Of a stretch of 64,000 bases of DNA, positions 36,770 to 40,179 are shown in pieces. A program made the position numbers and the translations under genes. The notes under the pieces are model-generated. The model was given only the letters and a program-made list of their open reading frames with translations, made no database searches and was not told the DNA's origin. The stretch's first letter is position 1, and every line of letters starts with the position of its first letter. This DNA comes from Natronococcus occultus SP4 (GTDB taxonomy: Archaea; Halobacteriota; Halobacteria; Halobacteriales; Natrialbaceae). Location of the stretch: contig NC_019976.1 in assembly GCF_000328685.1 (NCBI RefSeq), positions 1 through 64,000 of the forward strand, given 5' to 3'.

Positions 36770-36915
36770 ACTCGAGGAGATGGAACAGCTTCGAGGCGTC
36801 TGCCTATCTGACGCCGTCGTACCCTACCTTCAGGAACGGAATGAGGCGATTGTCGCACTGCTCTATGATGCGGGCCTTCGCGCCGGCGAGCTGTGCGCTC
36901 TTGACGTGAATAGTT
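36770..36915 (+). pseudogene. Integrase (tyrosine recombinase) fragment
   Basis: The plus strand reads LEEMEQLRGVCLSDAVVPYL then QERNEAIVALLYDAGLRAGE, LCALDVN. This corresponds to the start of the catalytic domain with the first catalytic Arg (AGLRAGEL). It is cut by an IS6-type remnant and nothing of the C-terminal half is present. Confidence 0.75.
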
Positions 36916-37000
36916 CGTGCATTATTACAACACCCAGAAATCACGTCAATTAATTGATTAAAAGACGTCAGCTGAGGGGGTGCTAGACAGTACCTTGGGT
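36916..37000 (+). mobile_element. IS6-type element remnant (3' end)
   Basis: The stretch beginning CATTATTACAACACCCAG encodes HYYNTQKSRQ-like residues and ends in GTGCTAGACAGTACC, comparable to the end of the two full IS6-type copies (YYNRQRPH...EEVQN, CTAGACAGTGCC). Only the last about 80 bp remain, inserted in the integrase fragment. Confidence 0.75.
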
Positions 37001-37078: not shown

Positions 37079-37825
37079 TCAGTCGCCATATTCCTGAACG
37101 ATTCGATTCGCTACTCGAGGCGGAAGGACGACGAGGGTCGGCGCGTAGCCAGCGCGGTGTTGGAGCGCGAGAACGACGACGTCGCCGACACGAACTGCTG
37201 TCGTTCCGACAACGTCCTTGAGAGACGTTCTCCGGTCGTCGCCGCTGAATCCGCGGAGCAGGTCCCAAAGGTTGCCTCCGCCGCCCTCGGTGAGTGTGCG
37301 TCGGTTGTATATTACGAGCGTCTCCGATTCGACATCGAGACGACCCCTGTTCGGTGCGGTCCACCAGAAAAAACAACAGAGTACAGCGCCGGCGAAGGCC
37401 ACCCCAAGTACGTATTCGGGCTGGGATTCGAACACAAAAATCGACCCAAAATACCCGACGAACCCGACCGCCGCTGCTACTGCATACTGCCGAGGAGGAG
37501 CGTGGTCGAATATCGTCCGTTCGGGATGGGCCGGGTCAAAGAAAAAATACTGGGCTATCATTCTCTTCCTCCCGGTTCCGGTTAACGTCCGTAACACGCC
37601 CCAGAAGGCAAGAATTGGAACACCCATAACGAGAGCAAGAATTCCCACAAGTTCGAGCATCGTTGTTCCAGTCACGTATCGTGAAGCAATAGCGAGGAGC
37701 AGACTCGTTCCCACGAGGAGGACCAGCCCCCAGACGACTGCAAACTGGGTAGCGAGCAGAGCCTCTATTGTTCGCGACGTGCTGGCGTTGACGTCCCACT
37801 CCAGTTCGGCTTTGCTCGGTTGCAT
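37079..37825 (-). CDS. Membrane protein behind the halocin-like gene
   Basis: From ATG 37825 the product is 248 residues. Two hydrophobic helices (AVVWGLVLLVGTSLLLAIAS and MLELVGILALVMGVPILAFW) are followed by two more (QYAVAAAVGFVGYFGSIFVF and GVAFAGAVLCCFFWW) and a cytoplasmic C-terminal domain with strands LDVESETLVIYNRR and DVVVLALQHRAGYAPTLVVL. It lies 80 bp after the halocin-like precursor in the same direction, so an immunity or export role is conceivable but unproven. No family recognised. Confidence 0.65.
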   Translation of the reverse strand: MQPSKAELEWDVNASTSRTIEALLATQFAVVWGLVLLVGTSLLLAIASRYVTGTTMLELVGILALVMGVPILAFWGVLRTLTGTGRKRMIAQYFFFDPAHPERTIFDHAPPRQYAVAAAVGFVGYFGSIFVFESQPEYVLGVAFAGAVLCCFFWWTAPNRGRLDVESETLVIYNRRTLTEGGGGNLWDLLRGFSGDDRRTSLKDVVGTTAVRVGDVVVLALQHRAGYAPTLVVLPPRVANRIVQEYGD

Positions 37826-37905
37826 CGCGATCACGTATTCGAGACGCGCTACAAGTACCAAGTGAAATCAACCAGAAATAAAGATTCCGATAGCGGACCT
37901 GCTAT

Positions 37906-38910
37906 TCAAAAGAATACATCTTCGAGGCGTTCCGCACCGTCGAGACCGAGTTCGACGATGCAATAGATCGCATCAATACAACTACAGTAGTTGTATAAAC
38001 TCACGCTACAGATTTGGGTCGCACAGATGAAGCACGCAACGTATCCCGGTGCGCTCATTCGCGCTGAACAGACTAGGTTGCAAGATCGACATCCAGCTGG
38101 GCTGATAACGTTTAGGACGCACGATGATGCGTCCACGGTCCACTCGGCTGGGTCACAATCGCTCGTGCACGGGTTGCTGATCTGTGCACCAATACTATCC
38201 GACTGGTTCGGTTCGACTTCTTTGACGTCGATCGATACCTCATCGTGATTTACGTCAACGAAGGCCGTTTCGATCTTCTCGTCTCCGGTTCGTTCGACGA
38301 CGAATTCCTCGGTTCTCGCTTCTGCGATCACTGCCATGTCGCCCTCCCTGATCTCCTTAGCCGAAACGGACTCGAGCGAGGTGGACTCTCCTTGCAATGT
38401 CCGAGCGATCTGGGCGCGCTCTTGCTGGGTGGCCGTCCGGCGGAAGGCTGCCTCAGACTTGTCGTATATAACTACCGCGTCAGTCCCGCCCGGGAACAAA
38501 TGCACGTCGGAAAGTGACTGCTGCCGTACGATCTGGTTTCGACGACGCTTGTACACATCTACGTCTGGTCCCTCAAAGAAGAATATAGTGCTCAGGAGGT
38601 GATCATTATACACAAGTGATCTGATATTACCAATGTTTGTCGGTATTTCGATGAGACCAACCGGCCCCTCTAAGTTCTCGTGCTCGAGAGTCTCAATTTC
38701 TGCGTTATTTTTTGCCGGTTTGACGACCATCACCTTATCCGCACCCGGAATCGGCCGTTCGACCATCGAGATTACCTCTTGTACCATATCAGACTGGAGG
38801 AAAACTTCGACAGACGAGCCCTCAACCCTCTCCGCCTTTACCGAAGCACCAGCCATGGATAATGACGCCCCAGCCACGCCAATTGACTGCAATACTTTCC
38901 GTCGATTCAC
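37906..38910 (-). CDS. Halocin C8-like precursor protein
   Basis: The 334-residue protein starts with a Tat signal MNRRKVLQSIGVAGASLSMA. A middle domain (about residues 30-240) has the helix-strand pattern VMVVKPAKNNAEIETLEHEN and resembles the immunity/propeptide part of halocin precursors. The last 90 residues contain twelve Cys in the arrangement GCRSCNLVCSA, YVACFICATQIC and YNYCSCIDAIYC, comparable to mature halocin C8 (ten Cys, GCSACKYA...). The likely product is a secreted, disulfide-rich peptide that kills related haloarchaea, with the N-terminal part giving immunity. A membrane protein gene follows. Confidence 0.8.
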   Translation of the reverse strand: MNRRKVLQSIGVAGASLSMAGASVKAERVEGSSVEVFLQSDMVQEVISMVERPIPGADKVMVVKPAKNNAEIETLEHENLEGPVGLIEIPTNIGNIRSLVYNDHLLSTIFFFEGPDVDVYKRRRNQIVRQQSLSDVHLFPGGTDAVVIYDKSEAAFRRTATQQERAQIARTLQGESTSLESVSAKEIREGDMAVIAEARTEEFVVERTGDEKIETAFVDVNHDEVSIDVKEVEPNQSDSIGAQISNPCTSDCDPAEWTVDASSCVLNVISPAGCRSCNLVCSARMSAPGYVACFICATQICSVSLYNYCSCIDAIYCIVELGLDGAERLEDVFF

Positions 38911-39434: not shown

Positions 39435-40179
39435 GGCACTGTCTAGTTGAGCCAGTTTGAGGAACGAGCAGGTCGTTGAGTAAATTGGGTAAGATGCTCG
39501 CAGACCTGCTCAGCGAGAGCTACGACACGGATTTAGAAGAATCTTGGGAGAACGAGCGGACGGCGACGCCCGTCAGGGCGTTCGCCGTCCGTCTCCATCA
39601 GACCGGTTGTTCGCTTCGAGAGACAACAACGACTCTCGCTGAGTTAGGCGTTGAACGCTCTCACGGGGCGGTCTGGAACTGGGTACATCGGCTGGCTGAC
39701 AGCGAGTGCGACCCGCCTGAGGCGCAGCCAAAGCGGGTCGCGGTTGACGAGACCGCTGTCAAAATCAACGGCGAGTGGTCTTGGTTGTACGCTGCAATAG
39801 ACACCGAAACGAAGCTGATTCTTGACGTCGCGTTGTTCGGTCGGCACGGAACCGATCCGGCAGCTGCGTTTCTGCATCGACTCGACGAAAAATACGATCT
39901 CTCCGACACCGTATTTCTCGTCGATCAATTTGGCTATCGGACTGCCCTTGCTCGATTAGGGTTGAGCGGTCGGGTCAACTATACCGAGCGAAACCTCATC
40001 GAAAAGTGGTTTCACACCCTCAAAATGCGTATCGACCGCTTCCACAACTCGTGGGTGGGCAGTCGGGCGAGTGCACGCGAATGGTTTGAACAATTCATGC
40101 ACTACTACAACCGCCAGAGACCGCACTAAGCTCTCGACGGAAAGACGCCGATCGAGGAGGTGCAGAACTAGACAGTGCC
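39435..40179 (+). mobile_element. IS6-family insertion sequence (ISH-type), copy 2
   Basis: A 745-bp element with the same 14-bp terminal repeats as copy 1: GGCACTGTCTAGTT at 39435-39448 and AACTAGACAGTGCC at 40166-40179. The interior is highly similar to copy 1 but not identical. No direct target repeat is visible (TCCTGATA and ATACATTC). Confidence 0.93.
39494..40129 (+). pseudogene. IS6-type transposase, nonsense mutation near C-terminus
   Basis: Starting at ATG 39494, the frame gives MLADLLSESYDTDLEESW, the catalytic-region segments VAVDETAVKINGEWSWLYAA and NLIEKWFHTLKMRIDRFHNS, and stops after YYNRQRPH at TAA 40127-40129. Reading on gives ALDGKTPIEEVQN, so a Gln codon (CAA) has become TAA. 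This is three codons beyond the position of the analogous stop in copy 1. Confidence 0.85.

Follow-up and report, generated by a model that had tools for sequence, protein, structure and literature searches.

Active fragments of HalH4 and HalC8 are described in PMC12893001 as being released by proteolysis from exported haloarchaeal precursors, and a halocin C8 precursor is described in PMC11509114. HalH4 and HmHapP (HFX_0892) of Haloferax mediterranei are exported precursors activated by extracellular cleavage according to PMC12893001, and the same would apply to the precursor described here. HmHapP differs from the latter in that its active part is N-terminal and alpha-helical, and the word "cysteine" is absent from the main text of PMC12893001.

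The window analysed in this study is the whole stretch of 64,000 nucleotides from Natronococcus occultus SP4, located on a contig of 287,963 bases. The gene under study and its downstream neighbour comprise the following features:

37906..38910, (-) strand: precursor gene, 334 aa, GTG start; identified from the sequence and a leave-one-out family profile (E = 8e-35)
38833..38910, (-) strand: twin-arginine (Tat) signal predicted for residues 1-26, with RR at positions 3-4 and the likely cut after VKA
38200..38823, (-) strand: middle (pro-)domain, residues 30-237; profile from 30 relatives, E = 4.9e-15
37960..38169, (-) strand: Cys-rich tail, residues 248-317, with 12 Cys; tail profile E = 5.1e-6, all 12 slots assigned
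38008..38091, (-) strand: six-Cys core C-x2-C-x3-C-x11-C-x2-C-x4-C, located by a pattern search of the genome
37079..37825, (-) strand: membrane protein, 248 aa, ATG start, four hydrophobic segments; a neighbour of the precursor only

The original prediction of a Tat signal, a middle domain and a Cys-rich tail with 12 Cys is borne out in the 334-aa ORF. The protein begins with MNRRKVLQSIG, and its hydrophobic stretch ends in VKA, where the Tat cut site is predicted from the sequence; the RR pair is aligned and nearly invariant in a 31-row family alignment. The middle domain of about 200 aa is followed by the tail, and all 12 Cys are located within residues 248-317, that is, in the last 87 residues, with none elsewhere and with gaps of 3-11-9-2-3-11-2-4-7-1-5. 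The six-Cys core pattern has a single match in the whole source genome, which is the precursor. The surroundings are those of a mobile element, with an IS6-type transposase (so annotated in matching plasmids) upstream of the precursor at 39476-40129 and a short integrase-like fragment, read by eye, downstream of the precursor and membrane gene pair at 36780-36953.

A family of precursors with Cys-rich tails

Searches of Pfam and NCBIfam with the precursor protein gave no match of note, a search of the PDB returned signal-peptide and chance-level matches only, and a protein search found no close relatives among viral contigs and genome contigs. The structure predicted from a three-row alignment (mean pLDDT 37.8) was of no use. 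With the precursor alone as query, weak relatives were found in 8 other genomes of the 125 in the GTDB family. Among six of the nine matches outside the source genome, not all are precursors; clear proteins with a Tat signal and a Cys tail are present at L002, L003/L010 (two), L004 and L005. A six-row profile had matches in 40 of the 125 genomes at E <= 1e-4, and within the order a 31-row profile matched 71 of 392 genomes (E <= 1e-6); both figures are upper limits that include partial matches within the first 40-100 positions, which may be to the signal peptide only. The DNA pattern of the Cys core was rejected as a census tool, as, on inspection of the matches, it also picks up a zinc-finger-like gene and low-complexity TGC/TGT repeats, and a backwards control matches more.

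The 31-row alignment contains the precursor, 26 proteins from genomes and four from named plasmids; near copies (e.g. L064, L071) and broken or partial copies (e.g. L060, L074) were left out. One architecture, consisting of an RR signal, a middle domain and a Cys tail, is found throughout. When the precursor was left out, the profile of the 30 relatives matched it at E = 8e-35 over nearly its full length when run against the 437 ORFs of the window and the same ORFs reversed, where the second-best hit had an E value of 0.0016, and the sub-profiles of the middle domain and the tail each matched alone (E = 4.9e-15 and 5.1e-6, respectively). By sequence comparison, the precursor is therefore a very diverged member of a separate Tat-exported Cys-tail family that is unnamed in Pfam and NCBIfam. 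The other members are 17-24% identical to it. The original prediction of an exported precursor with a Cys-rich tail, diverged enough for a type of its own, is supported. That prediction had been made to depend on the conservation of the tail in homologues, and the tail is carried by 31 of 31 aligned rows. In the 31-row tree, the end branch of the precursor is the longest (2.42; median 1.27) and its placement is without support. The core C-x2-C-x3-C-x11-C-x2-C-x4-C is the commonest form in the family, and the precursor has both this core and an even number of Cys. No description of the Cys-tail family, or of disulfide pairing or order in halocin C8, was found in searches of the open literature; the halocin C8 family as reportedly widened by Makarova et al. 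in 2019 may include some proteins of the Cys-tail family.

Paired loss of cysteines in the tail

Cys numbers and positions were compared in 54 non-redundant family members (from 89) and 31 proteins of the halocin C8 (TIGR04449) type (from 53), with 14 ambiguous proteins set aside. The tails of 6, 28, 17 and 3 members contain 8, 10, 12 and 14 Cys, respectively, and none of the 54 has an odd number, after one distant Cys of L052 had been removed by a fixed rule. The counts are also even in the 14 ambiguous proteins, in all 59 rows when five borderline rows are added, and in 30 of the 31 halocin C8 proteins, the exception being a 150-aa ORF; other Cys-rich ORFs are not a clean control for parity, as duplicates of members remain in the control set. 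The "two more Cys" than in halocin C8 that had been pointed out are thus correctly counted and are not distinctive, since relatives have 8 to 14.

Each tail was aligned to a 12-slot template, itself taken from the family, by Cys positions only. The losses at slots 1 to 12 among the 54 members are 3, 20, 0, 5, 5, 9, 7, 5, 8, 0, 20 and 3, nearly a mirror image, with slots 3 and 10 invariant. The top five of the 66 slot correlations are all nested, namely 5-8 (1.00), 2-11 (0.92), 6-7 (0.86), 4-9 (0.77) and 1-12 (0.65). These five variable pairs stay on top in all five parameter settings tried, and of the 10,395 possible pairings the nested one scores best. Unpaired losses number 2, 2, 3 and 2 for the pairs 1-12, 2-11, 4-9 and 6-7, respectively. 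When the five borderline rows are added (59 rows), the nested matching still ranks first, and pair 1-12 falls behind two non-nested pairs and out of the top five.

The same pairing is found in a tree of 51 leaves built from the N-terminal part alone, so that the Cys could not shape it. On this tree, coincident changes in the same direction number 16: 15 involve the six nested pairs and one involves the remaining 60. In 2000 trials with random placement, nested coincidences averaged 1.5 and never exceeded 6. The gap orders of the family are palindromic (0.333 for 40 distinct patterns vs 0.626 on average after shuffling; none of 2000 shuffles did as well), although the members are related and the samples not independent. 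The gap order of the precursor itself is no more palindromic than its own shuffles, 35% of which do as well.

The simplest reading of Cys slots that vanish together is that they are disulfide partners, and partners that are nested point to a hairpin with one rung after another lacing its arms together. The tail is therefore predicted, from co-loss in relatives, to be a hairpin closed by concentric disulfides, with putative rungs in the precursor at 248-317, 252-311, 264-309, 274-301, 277-296 and 281-293. The inner three rungs are firmer because they have exactly the spacing of the family core. Less weight can be put on the outer three, given the 11-residue gap between the second and third Cys and a gap order that is not palindromic beyond chance. 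Plant alpha-hairpinin antimicrobial peptides likewise have two arms joined by nested disulfides, but they have two disulfides rather than four to seven and come from unrelated organisms.

Proposed function and neighbouring genes

On balance, the gene probably encodes a precursor that is exported via Tat and gives rise to a hydrophobic peptide rich in disulfides, with a hairpin tail and nested pairing, for which an action like that of halocin C8 would be the most likely. Family membership, the conserved architecture, the even Cys number and the nested loss are the computed grounds of this model; the disulfides, the cleavage, the killing and the role of the pro-domain are what we infer from them. 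The precursor would leave the cell folded via the Tat route, with the middle domain either shielding the tail or providing self-protection or immunity. An extracellular protease would then cut between the middle domain and the tail, releasing a peptide of about 70-87 residues that would fold back as a hairpin with its arms joined by six disulfides (1-12, 2-11, 3-10, 4-9, 5-8 and 6-7). The released hydrophobic hairpin would attack competing haloarchaea in the manner of halocin C8. The product probably represents a new kind of antimicrobial peptide in archaea, its activity being predicted from sequence comparisons. If so, a common unnamed haloarchaeal gene family would hold a store of peptide antibiotics other than halocin C8, the sequence alone would provide a precise and cheaply testable disulfide map, and the loss of rungs one by one would offer a clear example of evolution acting on cysteine pairs.

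The tail composition is consistent with this model. The tails of the 31 family members have a mean GRAVY of 1.03 with 7% charged residues, resembling the tails of 18 TIGR04449-type proteins (0.88 and 11%), and the N-terminal parts are about 29% charged in both groups; the precursor tail has a GRAVY of 0.66 with 10% charged residues. This resemblance argues against an exported disulfide-rich protein with a role other than killing, such as a surface, adhesion, signalling or protease-inhibitor module that is possibly never cleaved. The export signal, the disulfide pattern and the diversity would fit such a protein equally well, as would the presence of the family on chromosome-sized contigs as well as plasmids. 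Against it are also the patchy distribution (40/125 genomes), the very high divergence and the tandem or divergent copy pairs at L046, L044, L058 and L068, features that are more usual for conflict peptides. A non-antimicrobial role is considered less likely, though far from negligible.

The gene following the precursor had been proposed as a linked partner for immunity or export. The linkage stands in so far as the ORF lies on the same strand and its ATG is 80 bp past the precursor stop (a TTG start, giving the longest ORF, would leave 44 bp), and a Kyte-Doolittle scan indicates four hydrophobic segments in the 248-aa protein; the proposed role found no support, as the homologues are not beside precursors. 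They are present in 12 of the 125 genomes, including the source genome. No homologue was detected at E <= 10 in the fetched precursor loci besides the source's own copies, and a search of the 1.5 kb around each of the 11 homologues from other genomes revealed no gene with at least 8 Cys among the last 100 residues. The membrane protein was accordingly rejected as a conserved partner. Small multi-TM genes in general are enriched beside precursors (13/29 vs 58/359 background neighbours; Fisher p = 0.0005), these being of several unlike kinds; genes were called and TM segments counted by a simple script of our own with a crude gene caller. However, the excess is not significant when only neighbours on the same strand and within 200 bp are counted (5/29 vs 32/359; p = 0.18). 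A two-gene unit in which the membrane protein confers immunity to the peptide or exports it is therefore improbable. For halocin C8, production and immunity reportedly come from one gene (title of Sun et al. 2005), in which case no partner gene would be needed.

Other genes recur near the precursors. A two-TM protein with an EYTGENRCxxCT-like motif is encoded near the Haloferax lucentense halocin C8 gene (L041:3829-4521) and in three family loci (L044:2396-3346, L049:4300-5208 and L063:4184-5089); it was rejected as a shared accessory gene, as 124 of 125 genomes carry members of the paralogous family to which it belongs. Beside two family precursors (L049:5475-6066 and L062:5659-6249) and near one halocin C8 gene (L041:1109-1710), a small gene for a multi-TM protein precedes a short HTH regulator. 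On a plasmid of halophilic archaeon DL31 (L045:3366-7485), the genes after a family precursor comprise small ORFs, one for an ABC-type ATPase and one for a many-TM protein, possibly an export or immunity cassette.

Relation to halocin C8

The precursor is not a member of the halocin C8 family by TIGR04449 (C-terminal halocin C8 domain) or PF22862 (Halocin 8-like N-terminal domain). Neither model matches the precursor or, at E <= 0.1, any of the 31 family members, whereas annotated halocin C8-like proteins match TIGR04449 in the tail (3/3) and PF22862 in the N-terminal part (3/3). The originally proposed "spacing like halocin C8" does not hold, as the gaps of C8 are 2-7-3-7-13-7-8-8-5 and the precursor has the core 2-3-11-2-4 of another family.

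The two groups nevertheless share a Tat signal (predicted for the precursor from its sequence and the family alignment), a pro-domain, a hydrophobic, low-charge C-terminal Cys tail and palindromic Cys spacing; they differ in the core (2-3-11-2-4 vs 3-7-13-7-8 in C8) and in the middle domain. For the halocin C8 type, the palindromy of 17 distinct patterns, again from related proteins, is 0.368 vs a shuffled mean of 0.589, with 0 of 2000 shuffles as good. The same order of parts and the palindromic spacing in both groups would fit a true but very diverged halocin C8 member that draws immunity from its own pro-domain, as would the first helix after the signal, which is weakly alike in hhalign (14.7% forward vs 1.4 and 1.6% reversed). 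The strong N-terminal match in hhalign, however, is carried by the Tat signal, so that homology of the N-terminus to C8 precursors was rejected, with a weak trace only beyond the signal. Tail profiles of the two groups mostly matched no better than reversed ones in a test of low power, in which two subgroups of the family itself reach only 17%; direct homology of the tails is not detectable at this power. Together with the lack of TIGR04449 and PF22862 matches in all 31 members, these results make a diverged C8 member quite improbable. A redox tail that binds metal or Fe-S would account for the Tat route, as Tat can carry cofactor proteins, and the CxxC spacing would fit it. This reading is very improbable, as the Cys disappear in nested pairs and not four at a time as ligand sets would, the family tails are hydrophobic and almost without His (0.42 per tail), and Pfam and NCBIfam searches gave no convincing metal-protein family match.

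With regard to the preferred reading, a halocin C8-like peptide from a separate family, there is a fair likelihood that the precursor works like halocin C8, and halocin C8 and the family probably work alike, whether or not they share a common descent. More tentatively, and with somewhat less confidence than an even chance would imply, both may be branches, by descent or convergence, of one archaeal antimicrobial class of pro-peptides that have a single hydrophobic hairpin and a ladder of four to seven disulfides, with whole rungs gained or lost. Such a class would amount to a second, widespread superfamily of halocins, and the connectivity of halocin C8 itself could be predicted from it.

Halocin C8-type tails (L104-L123, L041-L043 and L205-L224) have palindromic gaps, e.g. 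7-11-3-13-3-11-7, and the 8-Cys forms are without what look like nested partners, which suggests that the disulfides of halocin C8 may be nested as well. The motif [VIL][STRA][TIVASR]Q closely precedes the first tail Cys in 5 of 31 family members and in 7 of 18 proteins of the halocin C8 type, against averages of 0.14 and 0.32, respectively, for random segments. This motif, picked by eye afterwards, could mark a cleavage site; being post hoc and absent in its strict V-x-x-Q form from the window precursor, it was rejected as evidence. The source genome also encodes a true TIGR04449 protein on contig 1 (L118, G000:C1:1488831-1489043; E = 4.9e-10; 8 Cys), and since this protein is on another contig, the window precursor is a second, different one in the same genome.
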